Source of the DNA: an uncultured Clostridia bacterium
GTDB lineage: Bacteria > Bacillota > Clostridia > Oscillospirales > Acutalibacteraceae
Direction of reading: 5' to 3'
Assembly: GCA_945874765.1 (NCBI GenBank)
Contig: CAMCHQ010000003.1
Span: forward strand, 1-64,000
DNA: 64,000 nt
The notes beneath the pieces were generated by a model, which saw only the letters and a list, made by a program, of their open reading frames with translations, ran no database searches and was not told the origin of the DNA. Position numbers and translations under genes: made by a program. Of this stretch, positions 43,340 to 60,991 are shown in pieces. Each line of letters starts with the position of its first letter. Position 1 is the stretch's first letter.

Positions 43340-43780
43340 TTATTTCTCCGGCTCACCGGGAAGCTGGTCAACTCCGCTGATTGCCTCCTGAAGCCCAAGG
43401 TCCTTTTTAATTTGCGTAGTCGAAACACCGGGAGTTCTGTCAAGAAATACAAGTTCGCAATAATCTTTAAGATAATCAAACTTGTCGCTTCCTGCCCAGT
43501 CACCGCCCATTACAACGGTATCAACGTGGTATTCCTTAACATCGTTAATCTTCTGCTCCCAGCTTTCCTCAGGGATTACAAGGTCAACGTATCTTATAGC
43601 CTCAAGCATTTTCTTTCTTGTTTCGTATGTGTGATATGCCTTTTTGCCTTTGCCTGCGTTAAATTCATCGGTCGAAAGAGCAACAATAAGATAATCTCCC
43701 ATTGCCTTTGCCCTTTTCAAAAGACGAATATGACCGTAATGAAGCAAATCAAAAGTGCCGTAAGTCAAAATTCTTTTCAT
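43340..43780 (-). CDS. tagD: Glycerol-3-phosphate cytidylyltransferase
   Basis: 146 residues. 'YGTFDLLHYGHIRLLKRA' contains the HxGH nucleotidyltransferase motif, and 'DRTPGVSTTQIKK' is the R-T-x-G-x-S-T-T motif of the CTP:glycerol-phosphate branch. It makes CDP-glycerol for teichoic-type polymers. The TagF-like enzyme at 10026-11342 would use it. Length matches B. subtilis TagD (about 130) with a short extension. Confidence 0.93.
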   Translation of the reverse strand: MKRILTYGTFDLLHYGHIRLLKRAKAMGDYLIVALSTDEFNAGKGKKAYHTYETRKKMLEAIRYVDLVIPEESWEQKINDVKEYHVDTVVMGGDWAGSDKFDYLKDYCELVFLDRTPGVSTTQIKKDLGLQEAISGVDQLPGEPEK

Positions 43781-43795
43781 AATATCCCTCCGTTA

Positions 43796-46468
43796 TTATT
43801 TGTTGGTATTAATATCTATTGTTTTGGATTTCCAATTGTTTAATTCAACAAGATTCATACCTGCTGCTTCAAATTTACTTTCATATGCCAATACATTTTC
43901 ATTGAGTTCATCGGAAAAATCTTTAGAATTCATTTCCTTGTTTGAAACTCTTATAGAAAATGTATCGTGATAATATTTTGTATTTGTATAACAATTTTCA
44001 AGAGTAAACTCTGCTTTCTTATATGATACAAATCCAACATTTTTAGGAGCAACCAAAGAAACATTATCGGCAACCGAATTATAAATAAATCCGTCAAAGT
44101 CATCAGCCATTGCGCCACTTCTGTATTGACCTGTTATATTTGAATTTTTAATATAACAATTGACAATACTTGAACCGTTAGTAGCGCTGTGTCTTACTAA
44201 ACCTGCAACACAAAAACCTTTGACATTAAAGTTTTCAATACCGAGATTGACAACCTTACCATTAAGTGTTCCGAACAGAGCAAAATCATATTTGTTCTTT
44301 TCAACTTTGTTTTTCTTGTTGTTCTTTTTCTTTTTCTCGTTTTCCGGCATACGTTTATCAACAGTTAAGTTCTTAATTACGTAACCATTTCCGTTAAAAG
44401 TACCGTCAAATGATGCGCCGTTGATTTCATTTCCTATCGGTTCAAAATCTTTACAACCCGACAAATCAATATCCGAAGTCAACTCAACATTTAATCCCTT
44501 AAATGAAGCACCGCCATTTACCATTTTAGCAAAGTTTAAGAATTGTTCTGTATTATTGATTTTGAACGGATCGGATTTCTTGCCTGTTCCGCCGTTATTC
44601 CAATTCAAATACTTATCACTTTTAATAAATACACTTATAGAGCATTTATTGTTGATTTCGTAATTATTTACTGCGCTATAATTATTTCTGATACAAAATG
44701 TTCTAAGCGCTTTCATCATTTTTGTTGTTGCTGATTCCTTATTATTATTAAATGATGATTCGTGACCTTCAATTGCAAATTCAGGTATATTATAAATAAC
44801 AATTGCTTTAGGTTCAGCTTTAGTTATTGTCTCGATATCTTTCTGAACTGAATCATTAGTTGATACATCATACCATTGAACCTTTGTAAATGAACCCGGA
44901 TCCATTCTGTCAGCCGCAGTATATAATATAGGAGTATGTGGGAATACAAATATAGAATCATCCTTTGTAGTATTACTGTCTATATCATTAACGATTCCCT
45001 CGTATAATTTTTTATCCTCCTCGGACATTTTTATACCTTTAAGAATTGATACATTGGTTGTTTCTGTTGATTCCCATATCGATGAATCAGTAAGACCCCA
45101 CCAACTATAAGTATTAACCATTTTAAACGCACTGCAAAACATAATAAAGCACATTGCAACAACGCCAACAAGAGACATTGAAATCCAACTGTATTTATTA
45201 GTGCATAAACTAACCAACAAACAAATTATAACACCTGTTGAAAGTGCAATTTGGCTTGCCGCAAGACTTCCCGACATTCCGACACCATAACCGATAGTGA
45301 AAATAGCGCCGAAAAGGAGGAAAAAGCCTATATATTCTTCAAAGTGCTTTTTCTTGCAGAAAATGTCAACTGCATACATTATCATCATAATGAAAAATAC
45401 AACGGTTGCAAATACATAAAATCCATATGTTTTGCTTTTATAAATATCGGTCAACATTTCGGAAATTTTTTGTACTTTTGAAAGAATCAAAATACCGATT
45501 ATTGCTATTGCACCAAATACGATTAAAACAATTCTCTGTGCTTTGCTTTCGTCTTTGTCACCGGGATATACCTTTCTTAAAATAAACAATAAGAAAAGTG
45601 CGCCGGCCGCAACACCGGCAACACCAAGTTCGCCGATAAAATCATCTTTTCCGTCAATTATCCATTTAAAAAGAATAGTTTTAACTCCACCCTTTGCACC
45701 TACTGCGCCAAAAAGAGTTTGTGATAAGCAAGCACCAAGAGCACCGTTTGCAAGAAGATATATTCCGTATCCGGCAAATACTATTGCCGCACCGCAACCA
45801 TAATACAATAAATTCAAAAATACTGTTTTCTTGTCTTTTTCATAAACAAACAAGAATATAAAATAAATTAAAACAAAAAATCCGAATAAAAGTCCGATAT
45901 TTTGCTTAACCATTAAAACCATAGCATTTGAAAATCCGGCAAGCAAAGTGATTTTAATATCCGGCTTTTCTTTTGCTATAAAGCTTTTTCCCATTTTTAT
46001 AAGGAGAAATATTGTAAGATATGCAAAAATATCCATCATACGAATATAGTCATAAAAAATTTGTACTACTTCCGACTGAAGATAAAATGCTGTTACCAAT
46101 GCGCCCATACAAGCGGCAATAGGATTAAATAATTCATTAAATATACGATATGCAAGATAAGCTATTATCGTAAAGAATATAACCCCTAAAATTCTTAAGG
46201 CTATAATTGAATATCCGAAAATTTTAGTAAACAGAGCTATAAATGTAATATATCCCGGCATAAAAAGATATTCAAAATCTTTATAAACAACTTGTCCGTT
46301 ATTAATAAGCTGAGCATAATAGGTATACCAGCCTTCTGCCGCAGGCATTGTTTTGTTGCATAAAATAGCTGCAAATAAAACAACAGGTATTATTGTGAAC
46401 AATACACCTAATTTATAATCTCGGTTTTTGTCAATTTTTAGTTTATTATAATTCAAATTCTTAAACAT
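43796..46468 (-). CDS. Polytopic GT-C-like glycosyltransferase fused to a GLUG beta-helix domain
   Basis: 890 residues. Residues ~20-470 contain about 12 membrane helices in the ArnT/PMT (GT39/GT83-like) style, with 'WYTYYAQLINNGQVVYKDFEY' spanning the usual acidic first loop. A soluble outer domain follows (~480-620; 'FVFPHTPILYTAADRMDPGS'). The C-terminal ~260 residues are a right-handed beta-helix with GLUG-type motifs: 'VELTSDIDLSGCKDFEPIG', 'FDGTFNGNGYVIKNLTVD' and 'CVAGLVRHSATNGSSIVNC'. GLUG repeats normally occur in secreted adhesins or proteases, so the fusion is unusual. It probably transfers a sugar to a surface polymer or protein. Confidence 0.75.
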   Translation of the reverse strand: MFKNLNYNKLKIDKNRDYKLGVLFTIIPVVLFAAILCNKTMPAAEGWYTYYAQLINNGQVVYKDFEYLFMPGYITFIALFTKIFGYSIIALRILGVIFFTIIAYLAYRIFNELFNPIAACMGALVTAFYLQSEVVQIFYDYIRMMDIFAYLTIFLLIKMGKSFIAKEKPDIKITLLAGFSNAMVLMVKQNIGLLFGFFVLIYFIFLFVYEKDKKTVFLNLLYYGCGAAIVFAGYGIYLLANGALGACLSQTLFGAVGAKGGVKTILFKWIIDGKDDFIGELGVAGVAAGALFLLFILRKVYPGDKDESKAQRIVLIVFGAIAIIGILILSKVQKISEMLTDIYKSKTYGFYVFATVVFFIMMIMYAVDIFCKKKHFEEYIGFFLLFGAIFTIGYGVGMSGSLAASQIALSTGVIICLLVSLCTNKYSWISMSLVGVVAMCFIMFCSAFKMVNTYSWWGLTDSSIWESTETTNVSILKGIKMSEEDKKLYEGIVNDIDSNTTKDDSIFVFPHTPILYTAADRMDPGSFTKVQWYDVSTNDSVQKDIETITKAEPKAIVIYNIPEFAIEGHESSFNNNKESATTKMMKALRTFCIRNNYSAVNNYEINNKCSISVFIKSDKYLNWNNGGTGKKSDPFKINNTEQFLNFAKMVNGGASFKGLNVELTSDIDLSGCKDFEPIGNEINGASFDGTFNGNGYVIKNLTVDKRMPENEKKKKNNKKNKVEKNKYDFALFGTLNGKVVNLGIENFNVKGFCVAGLVRHSATNGSSIVNCYIKNSNITGQYRSGAMADDFDGFIYNSVADNVSLVAPKNVGFVSYKKAEFTLENCYTNTKYYHDTFSIRVSNKEMNSKDFSDELNENVLAYESKFEAAGMNLVELNNWKSKTIDINTNK

Positions 46469-47458
46469 TTACTTTTCCTCGTCACCCGTATTTTTATCAG
46501 CAATTTCTTTTTTATCTTTATCGTCATCAAAATTAATTCTTTCCTCTTCGACAACGAGAGGTCTGTTCATAATACGTGCATTCATACTCATAATATACTC
46601 GCCCAAAAAGCCGAGGAAGAAAAGCTGAATACCGCCGATAAACATTGAACAAATAATTGCCGGTGCAGTACCGCCCGGGAATCTGTCCCACCAAATAAGT
46701 TTCATAATAAGATAAACAATTCCGATAACAAAACTTAAAATACCGATTCCGAAACCTGCAAACGTTGCAATTCTAAGCCCCATTTTAGTATAAGAAGTAA
46801 ACGAAAGCATTGCCGCATCATAAAGAGAATAGAAATTGTTATGAGTTTTGCCTGCCTTACGCTTTGGCTGTTCAAACTCGATATCCTTTCTCTTAAATCC
46901 AAGCTCGGCAACAATTCCACGAATAAACGGAGTCGGGTCATTAAGATTTTTAAGAACATTGATAAAATCTCTGTCATAAAGGGCAAAGCCTGTAAAATGC
47001 TCAATCTGCTCAACCGATGACATTTTTTTAATCATCTTATAGTAGCAGCTTCTTGCCCAATACATAAATTTGTTTTCTTTACTCGAAGATTTAATTGCGC
47101 AAACGATTTTATATCCGTTTTCCCACTCGTGAACAAATTTAGGAATCATCTCAACAGGGTCTTGGAAATCGGCGCAAATAGGAATTACGCAATCGCCGTC
47201 AACGTGGAGCATTCCGTAATACGGGGAATTAAACTGACCGAAATTTTTAGCATTCAAAATAGCCTTGATTTTCGGGTTCTTTTTACAAATTTCCCTAATC
47301 AGCGGACGTGTATTATCCGTAGAACAGTTATCCATAATAAGTATTTCATAATCATACTGAGGAAGTTCCTCGGTAATTTCCTTGACTACAGCATTACAAA
47401 TTTGAACAATATTATCCTGCTCGTTATAGCAAGGAATCATAATTCCTATTTTTTTCAT
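46469..47458 (-). CDS. GtrB-like family 2 glycosyltransferase
   Basis: 329 residues. GT-A domain: 'IMIPCYNEQDNI' start, 'MDNCSTDNT' and 'PICADFQDP' (metal-binding DxD-like). Two C-terminal membrane helices ('FAGFGIGILSFVIGIVYLIM' and the following one) complete the layout of GtrB/DPM1-like polyprenyl-phosphate glycosyltransferases. It should charge undecaprenyl phosphate with a hexose for the GtrA and GT-C proteins of this locus. Its start overlaps the acyltransferase stop by 4 nt. Confidence 0.9.
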   Translation of the reverse strand: MKKIGIMIPCYNEQDNIVQICNAVVKEITEELPQYDYEILIMDNCSTDNTRPLIREICKKNPKIKAILNAKNFGQFNSPYYGMLHVDGDCVIPICADFQDPVEMIPKFVHEWENGYKIVCAIKSSSKENKFMYWARSCYYKMIKKMSSVEQIEHFTGFALYDRDFINVLKNLNDPTPFIRGIVAELGFKRKDIEFEQPKRKAGKTHNNFYSLYDAAMLSFTSYTKMGLRIATFAGFGIGILSFVIGIVYLIMKLIWWDRFPGGTAPAIICSMFIGGIQLFFLGFLGEYIMSMNARIMNRPLVVEEERINFDDDKDKKEIADKNTGDEEK

Positions 47459-48564
47459 ATTCTTACCTCACTTTGCTTTTTATAAAATAAAATATGAGTT
47501 ATTTTTTTACTGATATATTTCATCACTATACTTATATCTATAGTAACTAACAAAACAAGAATTGCAAACAATGTATCATTTTCAACATAGGCAAATGTAC
47601 CACTTCTCAAAAGGCAATATACAAATCCGTGATACAAATACAATTCATATGATATATTTCCAAGTTTGTCAAGAATTATATTATTTGACTTGAATTTCAT
47701 TGAAACAAGTAAGACTGTTGTTACAAAGAAAGGAGATGTCAAATATCTTGAAAGGTATTTTGGGCTAATATTATGAGCCTGAATTATATCTATCTTTTCA
47801 AATAATTTATAACTAAAGAAAAGTAAAACTGTTAATGTAATAAAAATCAACAATTTAGCGTAGTAGTTTTTTTGTAATCGTGCTTCTATTTTTTCTTTAC
47901 GTGAACCTTGCCAAATTATTCCATATGCAAAAGCCGGAAGTGAATAAGCCCAAAATTGTTTCCACTCAGTTTTATAAGTAAGTACACCAAAAAATACTGT
48001 GGTCAGCAAAGTAAATACTACTATTAATATTGTACCTGCCTTTTTATTTTTGCCGCCGATTTTAAATGCGAGCCAAAATTCAAGATACATAAGTAATATT
48101 TCGTAAATATACCATGCATTTATTGTCAAAGTACTACCTGATTTAACAAATTTTAATAATAGATTTTTTATATTATAAGTTTCTTCTGTCAATCCTTGTA
48201 CTGCCGGTAAATAGTGAAAAAGAATAAACGAAAAAAGCTGAACAAAAAGAAAAGGTATCAAAACAGTTGAAAATCTCTTTTTAAAGAAATTATTTAAACC
48301 GTTTTTCTCATAACTGCACATCAATCCATAGCCGGACAAAAAGAAAAACATTGAAACAGCTAAATTTCCTGTTCCTCTGAAAAAATAAAATGATTCAACA
48401 TTGGGCATTTCGGATAAATGGCAAAATATTATTGAAACGGCGAACAAGCCTTTCATTGAATTTGTATTTGACCGAGATAAATTATCAAGATTAAATTTTT
48501 CACCGCTGAATTTTACGTTATAAAAACATAAAATCAAAAAAGCGGGTATTATAATATTTATCAC
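47455..48564 (-). CDS. Acyltransferase family 3 (OafA-like) membrane protein
   Basis: 369 residues, about ten membrane helices, starting at GTG 48564 (GAGGGG upstream; GTGA overlap with the previous stop). 'NSMKGLFAVSIIFCHLSEM' holds the conserved His after the first helix, and 'FFFLSGYGLMCSYEKNG' the F/LxSGxL motif. Such enzymes O-acetylate surface sugars. It is more AT-rich than the enzymes around it, suggesting exchange of serotype-like genes within the locus. Confidence 0.88.
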   Translation of the reverse strand: MINIIIPAFLILCFYNVKFSGEKFNLDNLSRSNTNSMKGLFAVSIIFCHLSEMPNVESFYFFRGTGNLAVSMFFFLSGYGLMCSYEKNGLNNFFKKRFSTVLIPFLFVQLFSFILFHYLPAVQGLTEETYNIKNLLLKFVKSGSTLTINAWYIYEILLMYLEFWLAFKIGGKNKKAGTILIVVFTLLTTVFFGVLTYKTEWKQFWAYSLPAFAYGIIWQGSRKEKIEARLQKNYYAKLLIFITLTVLLFFSYKLFEKIDIIQAHNISPKYLSRYLTSPFFVTTVLLVSMKFKSNNIILDKLGNISYELYLYHGFVYCLLRSGTFAYVENDTLFAILVLLVTIDISIVMKYISKKITHILFYKKQSEVRI

Positions 48565-49487
48565 TTGTTTTCCCCTCGTTTATACCACTCAACAGTATTT
48601 TTTATTCCTGTTTTGAAATCGACTGTAGGTTTAAAACCGGTATCTCTTTTCAAATCGTCAATATCAGCGCAAAGATACATTACCTGATTAGGGAAATAAT
48701 CGACAGCGCCGAAATTGCACTTAGCACTCGGGCAGGCTATGTCACGAATATCGGTTATATAGTCTTTAAGACTTCTTGTTTCACCCGAGCCGACGGTATA
48801 AATTGCGCCGTCTTTACCCTTTTCGCCGGCGAGGAAAAATGCGTTTGCGATATCGCCGTTATAAAGAAAGTCCCACTGCTGTTCACCCGGTGTAAAGTCG
48901 CAATCCTCACCGTTTAAAAACTTAATAATCGTGCTCATAACCATAGTATGCGCACCGTCACCCGGACCGTAGGCGGACAAAATTCTGCACCAAATATGCC
49001 TGATACCGAGTTGAGAGCAAAGAATCCTGCTCATTTTACCTGCCGCAAGTTTAGCTATACCGTAGCCGTTATTGGGATTGGTAGGAGAATCGGGAGCAAC
49101 CTTTTGTCCGTTTTCAAGCCTGCCGTTTTCAGCCTGACTGCCTGCGCCGACAAATACGTCACAGCCGAATCTTTTAGCAAGTTTAACCGCTTCGAGTTCG
49201 TTTTTAATATTATTCGCCTGCAAGAACATATTGTCCCTATCCTTACCGTAAGGGCCTGCCCATGCAAGATGAAAGAAAGCGTCATATTTTTCATCATTTT
49301 CATTTTGAAAATCCGCCATTTCATCAAGCGAGCAATATGCAATTTTAACAAGAGGGTTTGACGGAATTTTATTAACCCTGCCGCCCTTGCGAACAAGGAC
49401 AAGGGTTTCAACCCCCTCGCTTATAAGTTTATTAACAAGTGCCGTACCGACAGCGCCGGTTGCACCCGTGACAATAGCTTTTTTCAT
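48561..49487 (-). CDS. NAD-dependent epimerase/reductase (extended SDR) of the CDP-sugar branch
   Basis: 308 residues from ATG 49487 (AGGAG upstream; an earlier in-frame start overlaps the GT-C gene). Rossmann motif 'IVTGATGAVGTALV', 'FFHLAWAGPYGKD', and the catalytic Tyr-Lys in 'NNGYGIAKLAAGK' (YxxxK). It resembles CDP-sugar reductases such as the AbeAB/YerF type. Lying in one locus with rfbFGH and a YerE-like enzyme, it is the best candidate for the ketoreductase that finishes a CDP-branched dideoxyhexose. This assignment is inference; the family call is firm. Confidence 0.85.
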   Translation of the reverse strand: MKKAIVTGATGAVGTALVNKLISEGVETLVLVRKGGRVNKIPSNPLVKIAYCSLDEMADFQNENDEKYDAFFHLAWAGPYGKDRDNMFLQANNIKNELEAVKLAKRFGCDVFVGAGSQAENGRLENGQKVAPDSPTNPNNGYGIAKLAAGKMSRILCSQLGIRHIWCRILSAYGPGDGAHTMVMSTIIKFLNGEDCDFTPGEQQWDFLYNGDIANAFFLAGEKGKDGAIYTVGSGETRSLKDYITDIRDIACPSAKCNFGAVDYFPNQVMYLCADIDDLKRDTGFKPTVDFKTGIKNTVEWYKRGENK

Positions 49488-49494
49488 AATTGTA

Positions 49495-51606
49495 TCACTC
49501 CTGTGACGGAACATAAATATAATATAATTGTTTCGTATGATTTTCACCAACTTTTGTGTCAGTTACAAATGTTTTAACCAATGTATATTTTTTCAACGCA
49601 TTTTGATAATCAGAATTCATATTTTCAGTCAAAACATCCACGGCTTTATTATCTATAACGAAAGCACTTGATGTATCACTGTTCATTGAATCTATATAGG
49701 AATGAGCATTTGATTTATAAAACCAATCAATTTGCTCACACGCCGAATAATTAGTTTTTTCATGATTGATTTCATTAACAAAAGCAGCCCAATAAATAAA
49801 GAGACGAGGATTTTCTCCATTATTATCATTTGTTGCCCAATCATTGATGTTATATGCAACTTCATCTATGTCATTATAATTCTCATTGTCGCTGTTTCCA
49901 ACCCATTTTAAATCAAACGAAGAATTTGAACCGTTTAAAACATTATCACCGATTACCATTACAGGATTTGCTACACAAAAAGAAATAGCTAAAAAACAGC
50001 AAAGCAATTTAATATACAACATAAATCTATCATTGCACTTTTCTTTTTTTTGAGTAAATGAGGTTCGGTTTCTGGCTAAAAAATCATCTGCCGCAACAGC
50101 ACATATCAAACACGTAATAAACAAAAGCGTGTAAATATTAGTTGAATAACTGCGCCCTACAAAATACGAAAAAGCAGAAAATCCATAAATTGCAAGCACA
50201 AACAGTGCGGTCGAAATACGTGTATCGGCAATTTGTTTTTCGCCCACTCTTTCACTTTTCAATTTAGGCAAGGCGGAATACAGAGCATAAACAAGCACGA
50301 TAATATAAACAATCCACAATCCAAATGAAATAGGCAACATATAGAACCCTGTGCCCTCAAATGCCAATATTCCAAAAAACAATTCATTAATGCCAAGTGC
50401 TTGACCGCTTCTCAAATAAGTAATTAATTGTACCGTACAAATAAAAATTAAAATCGAAATAATTGCACAAAATATTTGCGCAAAAATTGTTTTCCATATT
50501 TTCGGGTCGCCGAACGTATACAAATACGCTTTTTGCAAAATAACATATCCTGCAAAAGCGATAATACATATTATTCCGCTTTCAAAATTACAAAACAAAG
50601 CAAGAGCAATTGAAGCCCACGCAACTGCAGCTATTATATGTTTTGCTTTTCTGCTTTTTGTAGCGTAATGAATAGAAATTAAAAACAATAGAGATATCGG
50701 GAAAAAAGAGCGAAGCGGAAAATATTGAAAATAATAATTGCCGCAATAAAGCAGATTTAGCGGTCCCAACGTACAGGCAGAAAGTGACATCAAAAAAGCA
50801 ATGGCTTTGTTTTGAATAAACACATAGGAAAAAGAAAAAATTTCAAAACTCATAACACACAAGGCAATTGCAATCATTAAAGACATGTTCGCCTGTGTTA
50901 CGCCACCGATGATTTTTAAAAAAACAACGGCGATATAAGGATAAAATCCATAAATACTGTTAAAATCGACGCCGATTGTTTTTAAACTAAAAACGTTATA
51001 AATAGGATACCACCAAGCATAGTAATGATGAACCAAATAGTCACAGTTTGATGAAGCGTAATTTTTTGAAATCAACTTTGCAAAAACATAAGCAATAAAC
51101 GCCAAGGCAAACAAAAAATATAAGCATCCTACATTTTTCTTATTTCTACTGCCGATTAATATAAAAACAACTGATACAACTAATGATATAATCATTACAA
51201 TTGCCAAATTGCCGTAAAAAAGATTTAATGATATTGACGAATAGGATGTATCTGAATACAACAGAATCATCAAAACCAAAAACGCAAACGTCAAAAATAT
51301 TGCGAAATTTATAAGATTAAGCATTTTTTGACTAAAAAGCAAACTGTTGTCAGAACGTTTTTTTATTAACGGAATAAATACCATATAAAGTACAGGAAAC
51401 AAAACCGTTAAAATCATATATTGCAGTGTTTCCGCTCTTTCGGGTCGGCATTGCTTAAAAGCACCACTGAGCATTAAATTCTCAAGTGCTTGCATATCAA
51501 CCTTGTCAGATATTTTTGACAAAGCGACACCAACAATAAAACACGCAAAAATTGACAATACGAGGGAATATACATTAACCAGTATTTTTCTGCTTTTGTT
51601 TTCCAA
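49495..51606 (-). CDS. Polytopic membrane protein, probable GT-C glycosyltransferase
   Basis: 703 residues with about 13 hydrophobic segments over residues 10-560 and a C-terminal soluble tail (~570-703; 'FDLKWVGNSDNENYNDIDEV'). The short loop 'NCDYLVHHYYAWWYPIYNVF' and 'FNSIYGFYPYIAVVFLK' resemble the acidic/aromatic outer loops of GT-C enzymes, but I do not recognise a named family. It is AT-rich and sits between GtrA and the SDR reductase. Likely transfers a sugar from a polyprenyl carrier outside the membrane, or is a polymerase or flippase-like protein. Confidence 0.6.
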   Translation of the reverse strand: MENKSRKILVNVYSLVLSIFACFIVGVALSKISDKVDMQALENLMLSGAFKQCRPERAETLQYMILTVLFPVLYMVFIPLIKKRSDNSLLFSQKMLNLINFAIFLTFAFLVLMILLYSDTSYSSISLNLFYGNLAIVMIISLVVSVVFILIGSRNKKNVGCLYFLFALAFIAYVFAKLISKNYASSNCDYLVHHYYAWWYPIYNVFSLKTIGVDFNSIYGFYPYIAVVFLKIIGGVTQANMSLMIAIALCVMSFEIFSFSYVFIQNKAIAFLMSLSACTLGPLNLLYCGNYYFQYFPLRSFFPISLLFLISIHYATKSRKAKHIIAAVAWASIALALFCNFESGIICIIAFAGYVILQKAYLYTFGDPKIWKTIFAQIFCAIISILIFICTVQLITYLRSGQALGINELFFGILAFEGTGFYMLPISFGLWIVYIIVLVYALYSALPKLKSERVGEKQIADTRISTALFVLAIYGFSAFSYFVGRSYSTNIYTLLFITCLICAVAADDFLARNRTSFTQKKEKCNDRFMLYIKLLCCFLAISFCVANPVMVIGDNVLNGSNSSFDLKWVGNSDNENYNDIDEVAYNINDWATNDNNGENPRLFIYWAAFVNEINHEKTNYSACEQIDWFYKSNAHSYIDSMNSDTSSAFVIDNKAVDVLTENMNSDYQNALKKYTLVKTFVTDTKVGENHTKQLYYIYVPSQE

Positions 51607-51608
51607 AT

Positions 51609-52130
51609 TTACATATCCTTTTCTTCTTTTTTCTTAGCTCTGAATGCCCAAAACTTATTGAGCACGAAGTTAAGCGGAATTGTAATCAAGAGATTAAGAA
51701 TCGGGGCAACATAATCGCTTATATGGCAAATCGAGGTGAAGAACCAAAGAAGGATATTATGAAGCACCAAACCCGTTCCCGCATAAGAGAGGAAAAGCTT
51801 GATAAAAGCCTGAACTGGCGAACGCTCCTCTTGGTCCTCTTTTTTGAAAACGTAGCTGTTATTCCAATAAAACGCATTAGCCACGCTCAAAATAAAGCCG
51901 ATTACGCTTGCCACGTATTTATTAACGTGAAGCGGAACGAGAATATAATAAGTCGCATAAGAAATGACGGTATTTGAAAGACCGACAAGTCCGAATTTAA
52001 CGAACTGGACAAAGCCGTTCCAAACGTCATCCTTAATTTCAACTTTTGTAATTTTAGTAAACACCATGCGGCACCAATCCATAATCACCTTGATTATATG
52101 CCAGCACCACGCTGCAATTTTAATTAACAT
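51609..52130 (-). CDS. GtrA-family membrane protein (second copy)
   Basis: 173 residues with four helices and a lysine-rich end. 'FVKFGLVGLSNTVISYATY' and 'NAFYWNNSYVFKKE' are GtrA signatures, and the closing 'LITIPLNFVLNKFWAFRAKK' is typical. It differs clearly from the copy at 42864 and is preceded by an extra N-terminal amphipathic segment. Two GtrA proteins in one locus suggest two separate lipid-linked sugars are presented for transfer. Confidence 0.9.
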   Translation of the reverse strand: MLIKIAAWCWHIIKVIMDWCRMVFTKITKVEIKDDVWNGFVQFVKFGLVGLSNTVISYATYYILVPLHVNKYVASVIGFILSVANAFYWNNSYVFKKEDQEERSPVQAFIKLFLSYAGTGLVLHNILLWFFTSICHISDYVAPILNLLITIPLNFVLNKFWAFRAKKKEEKDM

Positions 52131-52149
52131 AGAAATTTCCTACCGTTTT

Positions 52150-53988
52150 TTATTCATCATCAAGAGGCTTGATATAAAGATTTTCCCTAAGTTCCTCACG
52201 TGGTAAGAACGGAGCAAGATCCTCAAGCGGAGGGCTGACAATCGTTCCGTCATCAAGTCTTCTTGCACTGCTCTTAGGCTCCCAAACCTGAGTTGTATCG
52301 GTAAAAATTTCGCAAAAAGCGAAGCCCGGCTGAGCGAGAACCTCATCAACAACTTTTTTCATATCGTCGTTATTATGAGCGCTGTAATAAGGGAAGCCGA
52401 AAGCCTTTGCAATCTTAGAAAATTCAGGGAATGAAAGGTCGTGCGATTCAGGGCCGATACCGACTTTGGTATGCTCTGAGAAAATATTATTTTGCGTAAG
52501 TCTGATTGAATGATATCCCTGATTATTAATAAGGAAAAGTTTAATAGGAAGATTATTTGTAACAATGGTCTGAAGTTCCTGAAGATTCATCATAATAGAG
52601 CCGTCGCCCTCAAGGCAAACAGTATCTTTTCTGCCGTCGGCAACGCAAAGACCGATAGCGGCAGGTAAACCGTAACCCATACTTGCAATAGCGCTGTTGA
52701 TAATAAATCTTGTACCGCTTTTAATAGTATAGTTTTGATGACCTACAACGCAGCAAGCACCGTTTGAAACCGCCGTATAGCTTTCTTCGGGAAGTTCGTC
52801 GCTCAAATATTTAATAAATGCGAAAACGTTAGCAAATTCACCGCCGTTATTCCAATGCCTTTCAAGAGTAACGGGATATTTATGCTTCCAATTTTGACAG
52901 ATATCAAGCCATTTTTGATTAGTAAACACTTTATCATTTGCAAGTGCGTTCACACTATGAAGAAAATCCTTAGCGTCTGCCCAAATACTCTTATCAACGT
53001 GGAGGGTATGCTTCATCATTTCGCTTTTATCGATATCAACCATAATAACCTTAGCTTCTCTTGCCCAGGTATCATAGCCATAGCCGACCTGACGAATTGA
53101 AATTCTTGTGCCGATAGCGACAACGAGGTCTGAATTTTGCACGGCAAAGTTACCCGGACGATCCCCCATATTACCGCCTCTGCCGACATAAAGTTCGTCA
53201 TCATTTTCGATAAGGTCAACGCTGTTCCAATAAGTTACAACAGGAACATTAAGTTTTCTTATTGCTTTTTTAAATTCTTCATATCCGCCTGAAAGACGAA
53301 TACCGCCGCCTGCATAAATAACAGGTCTTTCGGCTTTTCTTATTTCGTCGAGAACATACTCAACCTCACTGTCTGCCACGTGCGGCGGAAGAAGAGCGTC
53401 GTCCTCCGATGGGTCATAAGTCTTATCAAGGTCGTCCGTTTCGATAACAGTGCCCTGAATATCAACAGGAACGTCAAGCCAAACGGGGCCGGGTCTGCCT
53501 GTTGTTGCAAGATGCCAAGCCTTTTCCAAAGCATAACGGATATCCATAGGGTCTTCAATCATAACCGCATACTTAGTCATAGGCTCAACCGATTTAACTA
53601 TATCATACTCCTGGTCGCCGAGCGAACGCAGGTTGATTTCAGGATTAAGAGTTTTGGCATAACGTGAGGTGGTGGTATATTTTACCTGACCCGAAACAAT
53701 AAACATAGGAATTGAATCAAGCCAACCGCCGCAAACACCGGTAAGAGCATTAATTCCGCCCGGTCCCGACGTTACGCAAACGAGTGCTATTTTATTTTCA
53801 AGCCTTGCATATGCCTCTGCGGCAATTGCGCAAGCCTGCTCGTGATGATTATAAGTTGTGTGCAAGCCCTCTTGATGACCGAAAGCGTCATTCAAATGCA
53901 TTGCACCGCCGCCGACTACCGAAAAAGCGTCGGTTACACCGTGGTCAACAAGAAATTGAGAAATATAATTTGCAACTTTAATTTTCAT
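52150..53988 (-). CDS. Thiamine-diphosphate enzyme of the acetolactate synthase family, YerE-like
   Basis: 612 residues with the three ALS-type domains. 'YNHHEQACAIAAEAYAR' carries the catalytic Glu that activates ThDP, and 'TSGPGGINALTG' follows. 'GDGSIMMNLQELQT' through 'LINNQG' is the GDG...NN cofactor motif. The C-terminus lacks a regulatory domain. In a CDP-glucose/RfbH locus, the characterised family member is YerE of Yersinia, which adds a two-carbon unit from pyruvate to CDP-3,6-dideoxy-4-keto-glucose to make yersiniose. No ilvN/ilvC genes are nearby, which argues against branched-chain amino acid synthesis. Function is inferred from context. Confidence 0.85.
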   Translation of the reverse strand: MKIKVANYISQFLVDHGVTDAFSVVGGGAMHLNDAFGHQEGLHTTYNHHEQACAIAAEAYARLENKIALVCVTSGPGGINALTGVCGGWLDSIPMFIVSGQVKYTTTSRYAKTLNPEINLRSLGDQEYDIVKSVEPMTKYAVMIEDPMDIRYALEKAWHLATTGRPGPVWLDVPVDIQGTVIETDDLDKTYDPSEDDALLPPHVADSEVEYVLDEIRKAERPVIYAGGGIRLSGGYEEFKKAIRKLNVPVVTYWNSVDLIENDDELYVGRGGNMGDRPGNFAVQNSDLVVAIGTRISIRQVGYGYDTWAREAKVIMVDIDKSEMMKHTLHVDKSIWADAKDFLHSVNALANDKVFTNQKWLDICQNWKHKYPVTLERHWNNGGEFANVFAFIKYLSDELPEESYTAVSNGACCVVGHQNYTIKSGTRFIINSAIASMGYGLPAAIGLCVADGRKDTVCLEGDGSIMMNLQELQTIVTNNLPIKLFLINNQGYHSIRLTQNNIFSEHTKVGIGPESHDLSFPEFSKIAKAFGFPYYSAHNNDDMKKVVDEVLAQPGFAFCEIFTDTTQVWEPKSSARRLDDGTIVSPPLEDLAPFLPREELRENLYIKPLDDE

Positions 53989-54058
53989 TTTTACAAATTC
54001 TCCCTTATGTCATTATTTATTATGGCGATAAGAAATTAAAATAAAATCTCCATTCACA

Positions 54059-54117
54059 AAAGCAAGCCTTACCCTCAAAATTCTAAAAAATCAAGAGGGC
54101 AAAGCCTTGCTTAAAAA
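54059..54117 (-). terminator. Terminator-like hairpin after rfbH
   Basis: AAGCAAG...CCCTC and GAGGG...CTTGCTT form a long imperfect stem within the CDP-sugar cluster. It would separate rfbFGH from the YerE-like gene or reduce its expression. Confidence 0.6.
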
Positions 54118-54126
54118 CATTTTAAA

Positions 54127-55464
54127 TTAAAGATTTACTGCCTCAATGATTGTCTTAGCCATATAGTCAATCATTTCATCAGTCATTCCCGGATATACGC
54201 CAATCCAGAATGTGTCGTTCATAATGCTGTCTGTAACCGAAAGATCCCCGATTACTCTGTAGCCCTTACCCGACTTTCTCATTTCGTCAAATACAGGCTG
54301 CTTTGTAATATTGCCTGCAAAGAGCATTCTTGTCTGAACACCGTGGTCCTCGCAATACTGAACTACCGTGTTCTTAGATGTGCCCTCTTTACAAGTGATA
54401 AGGAAGCCGAACCAAGAAGGAGTGCTGTTTTTAGCAGGTTCAGGAAGAATAAGCTTATCCGAAACACATTCAAGCGCCTTGTGAAGTCTGTCAAAATTAT
54501 GACGTCTTCTCTCAACAAATGAAGGGAACTTTTCAAGCTGAGCGCAACCTACCGCTGCCTGCATTTCCGTTGCTTTAAGGTTAAAGCCGAAATGTGAATA
54601 AACATATTTATGGTCATAACCGAGAGGAAGCTCGCCGTACTGCTTATCAAAACGGTGACCGCAAAGGTTGTCCATACCAGACGGGCAAATGCAATCACGT
54701 CCCCAGTCACGCATTGAACGGGCAATCTTGTTAAGAAGCGGGTCATTTGTATAAACAGCGCCGCCCTCGCCCATTGTCATATGGTGAGGAGGATAGAAGC
54801 TTGATGTGCCAATATCACCGATTGTGCCGGTAAATTTCTCTTCTCCGTCAATTACATACTTACTGCCGAGTGCGTCGCAGTTATCCTCAATAAGCCAAAG
54901 ATTATGCTTAGTACAAAAATCCTTAACAGCCTGAAGGTCAAAAGGATTACCGAGTGTATGCGCAATCATAACAGCCTTAGTCTTATCGCTGAGTGCTGCT
55001 TCAAGCTGAGTGACGTCGATATTGTACTGCGGAATTGTTAAATCAACGAATACAGGAACCGCACCGTACTGAATAACAGGTGAAACAGTTGTCGGGAAGC
55101 CTGCTGCAACAGTGATAACCTCATCGCCTCTGTTTACTCTTCTGTCGCCGAGAAGCGGAGAAGTAAGTGTTGCAAAAGCAAGAAGATTAGCAGATGAACC
55201 CGAGTTTACAAGTGAAACGTACTTAACGCCGAGATATTTGCCGAAGTCCTTTTCAAACTTATTGCAATATCTGCCTGCCGTAAGCCAAAATTCAAGAGCC
55301 GAGTCAACAAGATTTGTCATTTCCTTACTGTCATACACACGGCTTGCATAAGGAATTCTGTCGCCCTCTTTGTATGGTGGCTTAGTCTTAAACTTGTCGC
55401 AATATTCTTTAACCATTGCAAGTATTTCTTCTTTAGCCTGTTCTTCTGTCTTATTTTCTAACAT
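54127..55464 (-). CDS. rfbH: CDP-6-deoxy-L-threo-D-glycero-4-hexulose-3-dehydrase (E1)
   Basis: 445 residues of the DegT/aminotransferase fold. The usual PLP-binding Lys is replaced by His in 'SFYPPHHMTMGEGGAVY', the hallmark of this PMP-dependent dehydrase. The [2Fe-2S] cysteines appear as C-x-C-x7-C in 'WGRDCICPSGMDNLCGHRF', with an upstream Cys in 'LIEDNCDALGSKY'. It removes the 3-OH from CDP-6-deoxy-4-ketoglucose and needs an E3-type reductase, which is not encoded in this window. GGAGG lies before the ATG and the gene follows rfbG closely. Confidence 0.95.
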   Translation of the reverse strand: MLENKTEEQAKEEILAMVKEYCDKFKTKPPYKEGDRIPYASRVYDSKEMTNLVDSALEFWLTAGRYCNKFEKDFGKYLGVKYVSLVNSGSSANLLAFATLTSPLLGDRRVNRGDEVITVAAGFPTTVSPVIQYGAVPVFVDLTIPQYNIDVTQLEAALSDKTKAVMIAHTLGNPFDLQAVKDFCTKHNLWLIEDNCDALGSKYVIDGEEKFTGTIGDIGTSSFYPPHHMTMGEGGAVYTNDPLLNKIARSMRDWGRDCICPSGMDNLCGHRFDKQYGELPLGYDHKYVYSHFGFNLKATEMQAAVGCAQLEKFPSFVERRRHNFDRLHKALECVSDKLILPEPAKNSTPSWFGFLITCKEGTSKNTVVQYCEDHGVQTRMLFAGNITKQPVFDEMRKSGKGYRVIGDLSVTDSIMNDTFWIGVYPGMTDEMIDYMAKTIIEAVNL

Positions 55465-55468
55465 TCAG

Positions 55469-56527
55469 TCAGTCCTCCAATTCAAAAAATTCATTAATTT
55501 GTTTATCCATAATAGCAGGAATATCCCCGCCGTCAAAATATACCTTAGTCCATTCAACGATTTTCTCAACTGCCTCTTCAACGCTCCAGCGTGGCTGCCA
55601 GCCGAAAACCGTTTTAACCTTAGTTGTGTCAAGTCTTAAGAAATTAGCCTCGTGAGGAGCATTAGCCTCACTTACGTCTTTCCAGCTTGCACCGTCGCCC
55701 CAAAGTTTGCAGAAAAGAGTAACGAGTTCGCCCGTAGTTCTGCAATCGCTGTCGTTAGGACCGACGTTATAATATCCCTCAAGCTTGTGATTTTTATATT
55801 GAGCCTCAACAATCATAAGATAAATTTTAAGCGGCTCGAGCACGTGCTGATAAGGTCTTGTCGAATTAGGGTTACGAACAATAATAGTATCGCCCTTTTC
55901 AACCGCTCTTACGCAGTCGGGAATAATTCTGTCATTTGCAAAGTCACCGCCGCCGATAACGTTACCTGCCCTTGAAGTTGAAACAGCAACACGTCCGTCG
56001 GTAAAGAATGACTTTTTATAACTGTGAGTAACAAGTTCCGAGCAAGACTTACTGTTTGAATAAGGGTCATATCCGTCAAGCGGCATATCCTCTGTAAAAG
56101 CAACGTTGGTTTCCTGATTTTCATAAACCTTATCCGTTGTTACATTAAGAAATGATTTAACGCAATCAAAAAGCCTTACACATTCGCAAATATTAACAGT
56201 GCCCATTACGTTTGTTTCATAAGTGTAAACAGGCATTTTATAGCTGTCACGCACAATAGGCTGAGCGGCAAGGTGGAACACAAGTTCCGGCTGCTCTTTT
56301 TCAAAAACTTCTTTAAGTTTATCAAGGTCACGAATGTCGGCAATATATGACGTCATTTGATTTTTAATACCCGAAAGTTCAAAAAGACTCGGGTCGGTCG
56401 GCGGGTCAATAGAATAGCCGACTACTTTAGCGCCTGCGTTAATAAGAATTTTGCAAAGCCAAGAGCCTTTAAAACCCGTATGACCTGTTACAAGCACTTT
56501 TTTATCTTTGTAAAACGATAAATCCAT
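55469..56527 (-). CDS. rfbG: CDP-glucose 4,6-dehydratase
   Basis: 352 residues from ATG 56527; an earlier in-frame start at 56569 would overlap rfbF by 37 nt. Rossmann motif 'VLVTGHTGFKGSWLCKIL' (TGHTGFKG is diagnostic). Later come 'VNICECVRLFDCVKSFLNVT' (split here at 20: catalytic Thr region 'NVTTDKVYEN') and 'DPYSNSKSCSELV' with YSNSK, the YxxxK form. It converts CDP-glucose to CDP-4-keto-6-deoxyglucose with tightly bound NAD. Lies immediately behind rfbF. Confidence 0.95.
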   Translation of the reverse strand: MDLSFYKDKKVLVTGHTGFKGSWLCKILINAGAKVVGYSIDPPTDPSLFELSGIKNQMTSYIADIRDLDKLKEVFEKEQPELVFHLAAQPIVRDSYKMPVYTYETNVMGTVNICECVRLFDCVKSFLNVTTDKVYENQETNVAFTEDMPLDGYDPYSNSKSCSELVTHSYKKSFFTDGRVAVSTSRAGNVIGGGDFANDRIIPDCVRAVEKGDTIIVRNPNSTRPYQHVLEPLKIYLMIVEAQYKNHKLEGYYNVGPNDSDCRTTGELVTLFCKLWGDGASWKDVSEANAPHEANFLRLDTTKVKTVFGWQPRWSVEEAVEKIVEWTKVYFDGGDIPAIMDKQINEFFELED

Positions 56528-56532
56528 ATTTT

Positions 56533-57306
56533 TTACCAAACCTTCCACGGAGCAGTACCCTTTGCCCACATTTCTTCAAGCTGCATCTTCTCTCTCAAAG
56601 TATCCATAGGCTTCCAAAAACCGTTGTGAATATATGCGTCAAGTTCACCCATAGAAGCAACCGTTTCAAGAGGAGCTTTTTCAAATACTGTTGAATCGCC
56701 CTCAATAAAATCAAAAATCTTAGGCTCAAGAACCATAAATCCGGCATTAATACGGCTTCCGTCCATATCACTCTTCTCTCTGAAAGAAGAAATTGTGAGG
56801 TCGTCCTCAATACCGAGGCAACCGAAGCGCTGACCTACCGAAACGGCAGTCATAGTTGCAATATGACCGTGCTCTTTATGAAATTCAACAAGTTTGTCAA
56901 TATCAACGTCTGCAACGCCGTCGCCGTAAGTGAGCATAAACGCCTCGTCACCGATATACGGCTGAATACGCTTAACTCTTCCGCCTGTCATTGTATCAAG
57001 ACCGGTATCAACAACAGTAACTTTCCACGGCTCTGCGTGCTCGCTGTGAACAGTCATCTTGTTAGATGCGGTGAAATCAAAGGTAACATCCGAGCAATGA
57101 AGAAAATAGTTAGCAAAATATTCCTTAATTGCATATTGCTTATAGCCTGCACAAATCACAAATTCGTTATATCCGTAATGAGAATAGGTTTTCATAATAT
57201 GCCAAAGAATAGGATAACCGCCAAGCTCAATCATCGGCTTAGGCTTATTCTGACTCTCCTCGCTGATACGTGTTCCGTATCCGCCTGCAAGAATTACTAC
57301 TTTCAT
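56533..57306 (-). CDS. rfbF: Glucose-1-phosphate cytidylyltransferase
   Basis: 257 residues, the family's usual length. 'VVILAGGYGTRISEES' (GGxGTR with the Ser/Glu spacing of RfbF), 'KPKPMIELGGYPILWHIM' and 'MLTYGDGVADVD' (metal-binding D) identify the CTP-specific member. It makes CDP-glucose, the entry point to 3,6-dideoxyhexoses. GGAGG upstream of the ATG; a probable promoter (TTGATA, 17 nt, TTTAAT) lies in the spacer behind the YfhO gene, so rfbFGH can be transcribed independently. Confidence 0.96.
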   Translation of the reverse strand: MKVVILAGGYGTRISEESQNKPKPMIELGGYPILWHIMKTYSHYGYNEFVICAGYKQYAIKEYFANYFLHCSDVTFDFTASNKMTVHSEHAEPWKVTVVDTGLDTMTGGRVKRIQPYIGDEAFMLTYGDGVADVDIDKLVEFHKEHGHIATMTAVSVGQRFGCLGIEDDLTISSFREKSDMDGSRINAGFMVLEPKIFDFIEGDSTVFEKAPLETVASMGELDAYIHNGFWKPMDTLREKMQLEEMWAKGTAPWKVW

Positions 57307-57458: not shown

Positions 57459-60164
57459 TTATTTTATTAATTTGTGATAAATCAAAAAGGCAATCGGAAC
57501 GATATAAACCGCAAAAAGAGCAACAGAAAACGCCAACGAATAAAGCGCATAAACAACCGAGCAAAGTGCCTTCGGTGCGAATTTTTCTTTTCTTCTGAGC
57601 AGTAATACGAGTGCAAAAATCACGGCGCTTACCACGCTTATAACCGCACCTGTTTTAAAGCCCGACGGTATGAATTTCATAGAAATATTATTGTTTTCTC
57701 CGTTTAATTCAACCGCAGTCAAAAGCGACATAACGCTTTGAACCTTTGCGCCTTTACCGTTTACCTCTGCGCTCCAGCAACCGTTATACTGCAACGGAAG
57801 AAGCAATACTTTATCTTTGTTTTCAGCCTTTACGTTTTTGATATCAAGCGAATAATTTTGTGCCGAAACGTCGGCGGGGTTGTTATACATATCGCAAACT
57901 TTTTGAAGTTTTTCAAGGCTCATAAGCCCAACCTCTGCGCCGAAGTTTTTATTCCTGATATCATCGTCGCCGAGATTGTTTTTCCTGAAATCTTTTTTAT
58001 CCTCATACTTGCCCTCTTTAAGTTCAAGTCTGATTTCAACCTCTTTATCGCCAAAATCGCCGAGGCAAATAAGATTTCTGTTAAACCTGCCCGGATATTT
58101 TTTTGCCTTTTCTCTGTCAATCGACGGTATTCTCACAGCCTTACCGTCAACGTAAATCCTGACTCCGCCTGCGCCTTCAAGCTTGAAATAAGAAATATTA
58201 CCCTTCTTTGACTTGAAAGTGTAAATTTCCGTTTCGCCGTTCTTAGATTTAAGAGTAAGATTGCCGTTTTCGACTATATTTTCATCTGTTGAGGTAAAGG
58301 ATTTATAAAGCTGATTGTTAAGTTCCATCCAATTTGAATTTTCGACATCGATATCCAAAACGCTCTTATCAACAACCATTGCATACGGTAAAGTGTATTT
58401 GCATTTGTAATAATTATATCCTTTTTTCTTAGAAATCCTATCATAAAGTTCGGGACTTTCTTTTTTAACCGAAAGAACATTTTTAACACCCAATATTGCA
58501 TCTGTAAAAGCAGTTCCGCCACTGTCGTGCAGACGTGTGTATTCGCTGCTGTATCCAAGTGAAATAAGGGAACCTTGTACGTCCGACGGAATAAGATGAG
58601 TCCAATCGGCAAGCGTTGCCCTTTGCATAACCGTGCCGTAATTGCAGTTTAAAGTAGTGCCGACGGTTTTAATTCTGTCGGTTTTGGAAGTTTCGATATC
58701 GAGCTTTTTGACAAGTGACTGCGAAGTTGAAATATACTGCGGATTATGTTCCTTTTCAAGCATATCGGTTTGCCAATAAGGAATGAAAATTACCGACAAA
58801 GCAAGTGTTTCTGCAAGGACAAGCGAAAGCGCCGTTCTGTAATCAACCGTTTTATTTTTAGAACAGAAAATAACGAGATAAATCACCGTCAAAACAGGCA
58901 TTGCGTAAAGAACGGAATACTTAAAATCGTAAGCGCTGTCAAGTTTTTTGAGTACAAAATACGTCAATATCAAAAGAGCGGCAAACAACATTGCATTAAA
59001 CAAAACAAGCAAAATGTTTTTGCCCGATTTATCACTTAAATTCAACTTGTTGAGTTTAAGATATTTTGAATAATAACCCGCTGCCCAAACAAACGAAAAA
59101 GCAAGCGCATAACCCATTCGCATAGGAAAATATTTATAATCGCCGAAGTGCATTAACGCATTTGCGCCTTCGCACACAATCAGCACGGCAAGAAGCAAAA
59201 TATTAAGCACGAAAAAAGTGTTGATTTTCTTGTTTTTTCTGTTTTTTATTATGCCCAAAATCATTATTGCAAGGGGCAAAGAAGTACAAAACAGCATTGC
59301 CCATTTATCGTCGCTTTTGCAGGTATATGTTTTTACGATTTCGAGATACTGCTTTAAGATTTTTGAAAAATCAAAGCCTGTTTCGCTCAAAAATCTTTCG
59401 CTTGAGAATGTTTGGACGAGTTTGGGCGCAAGAACAGCACCGGACAAACCGAAGCCCAAAGCTGTTGAAAGTCCGAGTTCAAAAGCACGTCTTTTTTTGT
59501 CTTGCTTATTATCAATTGTTTTGAGATACAAAAAGCTCATAAAGAAAACGTAGAAAATAAGCAAAATGAAAACATAGTAGCCGCACAATACATTAAGTAC
59601 CGTCATTAATATGTAGGGCAAAATTTTGCCTTTTTTCATAAGCGCATACCAAGCAAGCATAAAGAGCGGGAAAAGCAAAACGGTATCCTGCCAAGCATTT
59701 GTGTAATACATAACCGAGAAACCGCAAAACGCATAGCAAATTGACAAAAGCGTTGACATAAACGGTTTTGTTTTAGCAGCCTTTTTCAAAAAAATCGCAG
59801 AAGTAAGGGCGGAAAGCGAAAAAGTCATTACGACATAAAGCCCCATAGCCTTGCCTACAAGTCGCCTCGGCAAAACAAGAAGCGCAAGCCAAAACACCGA
59901 AAGAGAAGCATTGGCGGTATCGTTTACTCCCAATCCAGAATACCAATTAAACCACAAAGCTGTGTCTTTTGTGTGTAATGCGTCCCAAATATGATAAAAA
60001 TTAGGTATAATTCCCTGCGCCATATCATAATATTCAACATTATTACTGCCGAAAGGGAATATTTTTCCTATCGCAAAACAGACAAGAAGTATCAAAGCAG
60101 TCAAAGCAGGCGCAAGCAATATATCATAATTTTTTCTAACTGTAATTTTTGATTTATCAGCCAT
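57459..60164 (-). CDS. YfhO-family polytopic membrane protein
   Basis: 901 residues from ATG 60164 (GAGG upstream; an in-frame start 15 codons earlier lacks an RBS). Around 13 membrane helices occupy residues 15-480, a soluble beta-rich domain lies at ~500-840, and two helices close the protein. 'FPFGSNNVEYYDMAQGIIP' with 'WFNWYSGLGVNDTANAS' in the first outer loop is the YfhO signature (acidic GT-C-like loop). YfhO proteins are linked to glycosylation of lipoteichoic acid and other surface polymers. It fits as the most upstream gene of the locus. Confidence 0.85.
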   Translation of the reverse strand: MADKSKITVRKNYDILLAPALTALILLVCFAIGKIFPFGSNNVEYYDMAQGIIPNFYHIWDALHTKDTALWFNWYSGLGVNDTANASLSVFWLALLVLPRRLVGKAMGLYVVMTFSLSALTSAIFLKKAAKTKPFMSTLLSICYAFCGFSVMYYTNAWQDTVLLFPLFMLAWYALMKKGKILPYILMTVLNVLCGYYVFILLIFYVFFMSFLYLKTIDNKQDKKRRAFELGLSTALGFGLSGAVLAPKLVQTFSSERFLSETGFDFSKILKQYLEIVKTYTCKSDDKWAMLFCTSLPLAIMILGIIKNRKNKKINTFFVLNILLLAVLIVCEGANALMHFGDYKYFPMRMGYALAFSFVWAAGYYSKYLKLNKLNLSDKSGKNILLVLFNAMLFAALLILTYFVLKKLDSAYDFKYSVLYAMPVLTVIYLVIFCSKNKTVDYRTALSLVLAETLALSVIFIPYWQTDMLEKEHNPQYISTSQSLVKKLDIETSKTDRIKTVGTTLNCNYGTVMQRATLADWTHLIPSDVQGSLISLGYSSEYTRLHDSGGTAFTDAILGVKNVLSVKKESPELYDRISKKKGYNYYKCKYTLPYAMVVDKSVLDIDVENSNWMELNNQLYKSFTSTDENIVENGNLTLKSKNGETEIYTFKSKKGNISYFKLEGAGGVRIYVDGKAVRIPSIDREKAKKYPGRFNRNLICLGDFGDKEVEIRLELKEGKYEDKKDFRKNNLGDDDIRNKNFGAEVGLMSLEKLQKVCDMYNNPADVSAQNYSLDIKNVKAENKDKVLLLPLQYNGCWSAEVNGKGAKVQSVMSLLTAVELNGENNNISMKFIPSGFKTGAVISVVSAVIFALVLLLRRKEKFAPKALCSVVYALYSLAFSVALFAVYIVPIAFLIYHKLIK

Positions 60165-60317
60165 AAGTTTTTCCTCTTTTTTATTGTTATCAACAGTATA
60201 ACACAACACTTTTTATTTTTAAAGTGCAAAATAAATACAACATATTACCCCGTCGTTTATACTTAACACTATACCTTGTGCTTATGTAATTTTATATAAT
60301 ATTTTTTCAAAAAATGC

Positions 60318-60346: not shown

Positions 60347-60397
60347 TTACTAAAATACCAATACGATTGTATTATTTAGATTGAGGTGCATTTAATT

Positions 60398-60973: not shown

Positions 60974-60991
60974 TCAATAATTGTATCATTT

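Follow-up and report, generated by a model that had tools for sequence, protein, structure and literature searches.

A predicted surface-sugar operon for a C4-branched 3,6-dideoxyhexose, with a YerE-like carboligase, in an uncultured Clostridia bacterium

An operon in the genome of an uncultured Clostridia bacterium of the Acutalibacteraceae (assembly GCA_945874765.1) probably makes a cytidine diphosphate (CDP)-activated, C4-branched 3,6-dideoxyhexose that is placed on the cell surface. The operon was analysed in a window of 64,000 nucleotides (the whole stretch of DNA, positions 1 to 64,000 of contig CAMCHQ010000003.1), and genes were called with Pfam and curated NCBIfam profiles and their cut-offs. 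By sequence, predicted fold and gene context, RfbF, RfbG and RfbH are encoded together with a thiamine diphosphate (ThDP) enzyme that belongs to the YerE-like class and is not an acetolactate synthase. The run of sugar genes lies entirely on the minus strand and extends from 57306 down to 42864, which is longer than first noted (48561..57306), and the genes already named in the original prediction lie on that strand where they had been placed. The genes proposed to make the sugar are the following:

56533..57306, minus strand, RfbF, glucose-1-phosphate cytidylyltransferase, 257 aa (TIGR02623, 400 bits, cut-off 300)
55469..56569, minus strand, RfbG, CDP-glucose 4,6-dehydratase, 366 aa (TIGR02622, 437 bits, cut-off 278)
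54127..55464, minus strand, RfbH, CDP-6-deoxy-4-hexulose 3-dehydrase with pyridoxamine phosphate (PMP) and a [2Fe-2S] cluster, 445 aa (NF011936, 714 bits, cut-off 423)
52150..53988, minus strand, YerE-like (JanthE-type) ThDP carboligase, 612 aa (all three thiamine pyrophosphate (TPP) enzyme domains)
48561..49487, minus strand, extended short-chain dehydrogenase/reductase (SDR), proposed branched-keto-sugar reductase, 308 aa from ATG (PF01370, 113 bits)

In the proposed pathway, RfbF would form CDP-glucose, RfbG would convert it to CDP-4-keto-6-deoxyglucose, and RfbH, using PMP and its iron-sulphur cluster, would give CDP-4-keto-3,6-dideoxyglucose. The ThDP enzyme, a member of the JanthE branch, would decarboxylate a 2-keto acid, for which pyruvate is the likeliest candidate, and transfer the acyl unit to the C4 ketone, creating a tertiary alcohol, and the SDR would then reduce the ketone of the side chain. 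A PgfS/ArnC-like family 2 glycosyltransferase (GT2) could load the sugar onto polyprenyl phosphate, GtrA could flip the resulting polyprenyl-phosphate sugar, and, on the outer side of the membrane, GT-C-type proteins with multiple transmembrane (multi-TM) segments may attach it to a polymer or protein of the envelope. The choice of donor, the SDR reaction, export and attachment are our inference.

The original prediction had assigned rfbF, rfbG and rfbH, and all three products score above their curated NCBIfam cut-offs. RfbH aligns with the solved CDP-6-deoxy-4-hexulose-3-dehydrase 3bcx (2e-154), and both features on which its identification had relied were confirmed, namely a histidine in place of the lysine that binds pyridoxal phosphate and the motif C-x-C-x7-C, which together with one upstream cysteine accounts for Cys196, Cys258, Cys260 and Cys268. 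CDP-4-keto-3,6-dideoxyglucose is well supported as the acceptor of the branching reaction.

Among solved structures, JanthE, a ketone carboligase of the YerE-like class that has been characterised, comes closest to the ThDP enzyme in both sequence and predicted fold. The window enzyme has the catalytic Glu50, an intact GDG at 461-463 and Asn489, which complete the GDG...NN motif, and carries Thr498 at the position of Trp574 of acetohydroxyacid synthase (AHAS). In a tree of 31 rows, for which 12 of 79 relatives and 6 divergent loci were chosen by hand, the window enzyme, JanthE and 5ahk (which we take to be PpYerE, represented by a 488-residue fragment without the C-terminal tail) formed a YerE-like clade separate from AHAS with 100/100 support, while 5ahk grouped with four Firmicute enzymes at just 91/57. 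The approximately unbiased (AU) test rejected a position of the window enzyme within AHAS (p-AU 7e-42), the groups having been named post hoc with the tree already in view. Clustering with housekeeping IlvB, looked for in the trees, was not seen, and the earlier view of this protein as YerE-like stands. The two other TPP-enzyme matches of the genome are an AHAS-like protein (L001) and a protein that looks like IolD beside an iolG-like dehydrogenase (L003). A plasmid search with the window ThDP protein gave 1597 records, all below 60% identity (28.8-31.1% among the matches listed), and one with JanthE gave no match at 1e-70.

The association of RfbH with this enzyme recurs in other genomes. In a sample of 300 genomes of the family, the window's own included, RfbH (counted at E <= 1e-90) was found in 46 and a YerE-like ThDP enzyme (at >=250 bits, a line chosen after the list had been inspected) in 45, with both in 43 (Fisher 6e-46); the pair is thus present in 43 of the 46 RfbH-positive genomes and in 43 of the 45 with the YerE-like enzyme. 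At a stricter line of 400 bits, both were present in 37 genomes, out of 38 with the YerE-like enzyme and 46 with RfbH (Fisher 1e-37). The two genes lie within 10 kb of each other in 34 of the 43 genomes, and within 600 bases in 19, while in the remaining 9 they are on separate contigs of draft assemblies. A chance neighbourhood was rejected, since the co-occurrence is far above chance and the module recurs. RfbH was absent from the four further genomes sampled in the window's genus, and for this reason the operon looks like a variable trait. Across the phylum, a ThDP match at 1e-150 was obtained in 13 of 398 genomes, the window's own among them.

A wider scan of species genomes at a loose E-value returned at least 563 relatives of the ThDP enzyme, some of which may be other TPP enzymes, and the locus statistics rest on the best 80 of these (54-79% identity; loci are labelled L followed by a number), with cut contigs included unless the loci are called well-flanked, a set of 48 that leaves out 32 of the 80 with short flanks. 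Within the best 80 loci, which according to record titles are mostly from gut Clostridia, RfbH occurs in 50, an SDR like that of the window in 48, RfbF in 44, GT2 in 43 and RfbG in 40. Of the 48 well-flanked loci, 35 have RfbH no more than 7 kb from the ThDP gene, 31 have GT2 near it, and in 16 RfbH and SDR are both its immediate neighbours. The nearest relatives, L111 (79% identity), L035, L036, L042 and L084, all have RfbF, RfbG and RfbH nearby; L042 belongs to a cultured species, Eubacterium xylanophilum. Overall, RfbF-G-H-ThDP-SDR-GT2 is a recurrent module, and the rarity in gut Firmicutes implied by the original prediction does not agree with 43 of 300 family genomes having the pair and with best loci that come mostly from gut Clostridia. 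The ThDP position of this module is taken in L124 by an enzyme that is not of the JanthE group, an argument that the position serves sugar branching.

Three further arrangements were observed among the related loci. Two loci from records titled Methanomassiliicoccaceae archaeon, L098 and L106, have a YerE-like enzyme with RfbF, SDR and an aldolase, L098 also with RfbH. Paired adjacent RfbF-like genes, together with RfbG and RfbH, follow the ThDP gene in L037, L038, L044 and L046. The Butyrivibrio loci L079, L080, L081, L083 and L089 combine a YerE-like enzyme with an RfbF-like gene, RfbG and RfbH being absent within the stretch, and these five loci may use a different acceptor.

On the minus strand, the gene order is rfbF, rfbG, rfbH, ThDP, gtrA, the gene of a 703-aa membrane protein and SDR, followed by acyltransferase, GT2, PMT_2-like, glycerol-3-phosphate cytidylyltransferase and a second gtrA. 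The succession of genes previously described is right as regards RfbFGH followed by the ThDP enzyme; the SDR, named next, does not directly follow it, with GtrA and the 703-aa protein in between. The remaining features are:

57459..60209, minus strand, YfhO/PgfM2-like membrane protein upstream of rfbF, 916 aa (NF047590, 109 bits, below the cut-off of 1500)
51609..52130, minus strand, GtrA-type small membrane protein, putative polyprenyl-phosphate-sugar flippase, 173 aa (PF04138, 89 bits)
49495..51606, minus strand, multi-TM protein, putative GT-C-type transferase, 703 aa (15 hydrophobic segments; zero family matches in Pfam and NCBIfam)
47455..48564, minus strand, Acyltransferase 3 family membrane protein, possible O-acylation, 369 aa (PF01757, 99 bits)
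46469..47458, minus strand, PgfS/ArnC-like GT2 glycosyltransferase, 329 aa (PF00535, 87 bits; NF047588, 166 bits, below the cut-off of 500), with two hydrophobic segments at the C-terminal end
43796..46468, minus strand, PMT_2-like multi-TM glycosyltransferase, 890 aa (PF13231, 32 bits, cut-off 26; 11 hydrophobic segments)
43340..43780, minus strand, glycerol-3-phosphate cytidylyltransferase, TagD-like, 146 aa (TIGR01518, 191.5 bits, cut-off 165.4)
42864..43337, minus strand, second GtrA-type protein, 157 aa (PF04138, 73 bits)

The two GtrA proteins and the multi-TM proteins would fit a route in which the sugar is loaded onto polyprenyl phosphate, flipped and then transferred on the outer side of the membrane. 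A gene like that of the 916-aa protein occurs in 9 of the 80 related loci. Adjoining the operon, at 60386-63342, are a small protein whose tail resembles a sorting signal, a protein similar to class B sortases (147 bits, below the cut-off of 154) and a glycopolymer transferase of the LytR-CpsA-Psr (LCP) type (61 bits, below the cut-off of 62). TagD in the operon and the LCP-type protein nearby hint at an acceptor polymer that may be teichoic-acid-like. Additionally, a strong hairpin (-35.1 kcal/mol, z -3.0) with a U run behind it, possibly an attenuator or terminator, lies between rfbH and the ThDP gene (53989-54126), and a second copy similar over its full length was absent from the genome.

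Several observations weigh against this reading of the operon. Reductases such as DdhD and AscD combine a Fer2 with an NAD_binding_1 domain, and no reductase of the AscD/DdhD/RfbI type was found by PF00175 and PF00111 searches of the genome (one draft of 31 contigs), in which the only matches were a PyrK-like protein and, within a 744-aa frame, an incomplete Fer2; because no such reductase was found, RfbH probably draws its electrons from a general carrier. JanthE stands on a long branch in the trees, and neither the GT2 nor the 916-aa protein comes near the Pgf cut-offs. In the window two genes separate the SDR from the ThDP gene, and epimerases, GDP-4-keto-6-deoxy-mannose reductase and dehydratases tie in the fold search with the SDR. 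Moreover, RfbH is missing within 7 kb in 13 of the 48 well-flanked relatives, and relatives at 65-70% identity occupy other gene contexts. On a tree of 88 rows, from which one of the 80 loci was left out (ThDP protein below 560 aa), the RfbH label changed 23 times against a shuffled mean of 26.9, with 43 of 500 shuffles as low, a count of changes that cut contigs inflate. Considering the loci that lack RfbH, the weak clustering of the label and the other contexts, the ThDP family is not bound to an RfbH-derived acceptor everywhere, and its context shifts often.

The identity of the donor decides which branched sugar the operon would make. JanthE accepts pyruvate, 2-oxobutanoate, 2-oxovalerate, 4-methyl-2-oxovalerate and, with benzaldehyde, 4-hydroxy-2-oxovalerate, as given in an excerpt of its description (PMC12188165). 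This promiscuity of the nearest characterised relative leaves room for the same pathway running on a longer or hydroxylated 2-keto acid, as with ErwE, in which case the product would be a long-branched 3,6-dideoxy sugar of the erwiniose or caryophyllose type and not yersiniose, a possibility that we hold to be real although the less likely one. The active-site position V121 of JanthE is occupied by Asp in the window enzyme and in 79 of 79 relatives (here and for Pro293, Tyr268, Tyr297 and Lys567, residues were matched with an offset of one, inferred from those named in the paper), which is in line with a different donor. The same can be said of an HMGL-like protein that 15 of 80 loci encode no more than 7 kb from the ThDP gene (for example L040:11860-13428 and L051:11851-13425); this protein consists of an HMGL-like domain and a second part, measures about 525 residues where complete, and has 4-hydroxy-2-oxovalerate aldolases as its best NCBIfam matches, below cut-off. 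Some of these loci also hold RfbFGH and an SDR together with a PfkB kinase or a HAD phosphatase, which suggests that these relatives make longer-branched sugars. However, the nearest relatives named above have no aldolase nearby, no residue distinguishes the aldolase-linked enzymes once the 1009 tests made are corrected for (best p 1e-4; 15 against 42 rows), and the window genome gave no gene like a 4-hydroxy-2-oxovalerate aldolase, a weak negative on account of which pyruvate stays the simplest donor for the window operon. The yersiniose-like pathway of the original prediction is retained for RfbFGH, the YerE-like enzyme and a branched 3,6-dideoxy sugar, while the pyruvate-derived C2 branch and the role of the SDR as YerF are putative. 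In its broadest form, the long-donor idea is that gut Clostridia hold a large, undescribed set of operons whose JanthE-type carboligases, all with the invariant active-site Asp, join long or hydroxylated 2-keto acids, some of them supplied by the adjacent aldolase-like enzyme, to CDP-4-keto-3,6-dideoxyglucose, and that the window sugar is a novel, non-yersiniose structure displayed on a Gram-positive envelope through GtrA, GT2 and GT-C proteins; we put this forward only tentatively.

The SDR bears on a second, unlikely alternative, in which a linear 3,6-dideoxyhexose of the paratose or abequose type is formed by direct reduction at C4 and the ThDP enzyme has another role. Translated from 48561-49550, the SDR contains TGATGAVG and YGIAK; the TTG start of this frame overlaps the neighbouring gene, so the ATG at 49487, which gives 308 residues (48561-49487), is the more likely start. 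The predicted model has a pLDDT (predicted local distance difference test) of 95.5, and an Arg that all 15 aligned SDRs have after the second strand fits NADP(H) and would point to a reductase. In many relatives the ThDP gene is followed immediately by that of the SDR, and among ThDP loci the presence of the SDR follows RfbH (28 of 35 with RfbH against 2 of 13 without; Fisher 7e-5), as a linear product would also predict. Two loci, L119 and L120, hold RfbFGH and an SDR with no ThDP gene nearby, so an RfbH product with an SDR seems workable, and the ThDP-adjacent SDR L057:9047 joins them in the SDR tree with 85% support. Those two SDRs, the only ones representing loci without ThDP in that tree, are nevertheless just 34-36% identical to the window SDR, pair at 82% support and lack the GSQAE(Y/N)G motif present in 13 of 13 aligned ThDP-linked SDRs. 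In L121, another genome with RfbH only, no comparable SDR lies within the stretch examined, and the near one-to-one occurrence of RfbH and YerE-like genes in the family further favours the branched sugar over a linear one.

A housekeeping role for the ThDP enzyme, as acetolactate synthase or some other decarboxylase present in the operon by accident, is very improbable and was rejected: acetolactate synthase models head its NCBIfam list, yet the best of them reaches 328 bits against a cut-off of 538 and the 24 other matches listed are also far below theirs, and the Thr at the Trp574 position, the placement outside AHAS in the tree and AU test and the separate AHAS-like gene all speak against it.

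The chemistry and the enzyme class are already known. A 2016 paper, in its excerpted part, sets the enzymes that branch antibiotic sugars in Gram-positive bacteria against a single protein, YerE, for the O-antigens of Gram-negatives (PMC4753412), and more than 200 YerE-like enzymes were predicted in the in silico survey of Krug 2024, as cited in the excerpt of PMC12247030. A YerE-like pathway in a Firmicute envelope was not found described among the papers listed by searches of open-access full text, and the survey of Krug 2024 may list some. What is new here is the lineage, the JanthE branch, a system with no visible cognate RfbH reductase, the putative export genes around it and an almost one-to-one link with RfbH throughout a Firmicute family. 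If the branched-sugar reading is right, many gut commensals would bear branched 3,6-dideoxy sugars on their surface. This would matter for immune recognition, for phage receptors and for residues left unassigned in glycan analysis, and their genomes would be a rich source of ketone-accepting carboligases for tertiary-alcohol synthesis.

Among known systems, the CDP-yersiniose A pathway of Yersinia pseudotuberculosis has the same acceptor-forming enzymes (DdhA-C/Asc), followed by a YerE-class ThDP flavoenzyme and an oxidoreductase, in one surface-sugar cluster (excerpts of PMC12247030, PMC4753412 and PMC4509608). In contrast, the window operon belongs to a Firmicute, has a carboligase of the JanthE group (YerE and YerF of Yersinia being compared by description only), is surrounded by polyprenyl-phosphate and GT-C-type genes, and comes from a genome in which a reductase of the DdhD/AscD type was not found. 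ErwE (erwiniose), MMAR_2332 (caryophyllose) and MygE (gastriose) are YerE-like sugar-branching enzymes with longer 2-keto-acid donors according to the excerpt of PMC12247030; compared by description only, the window operon differs in having no adjacent aldolase, such as the 15 of 80 relatives have within 7 kb. The Pgf system of Streptococcus mutans (PgfS, M1, E and M2) likewise combines a GT2 with large multi-TM proteins and, in the excerpt of PMC5856776, acts on surface proteins, whereas the window proteins score far below the Pgf cut-offs and the sugar differs. The window ThDP enzyme is 38% identical to JanthE of Janthinobacterium sp. HH01 (8rph, 8rpi, 8rpj), with which it shares the C-terminal tail, NNxGY, Thr at the AHAS Trp574 position, Tyr297 and Lys567, and from which it differs in GDG for CDG, Asp for Val121, Arg for Pro293 and Met for Tyr268. 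In CDP-cereose and CDP-cillose, the branch arises by C-methylation at C3 and not through a ThDP carboligase. Like the product proposed for the window operon, these two compounds of Bacillus cereus are CDP-linked rare sugars of a Firmicute (excerpt of PMC7725333).

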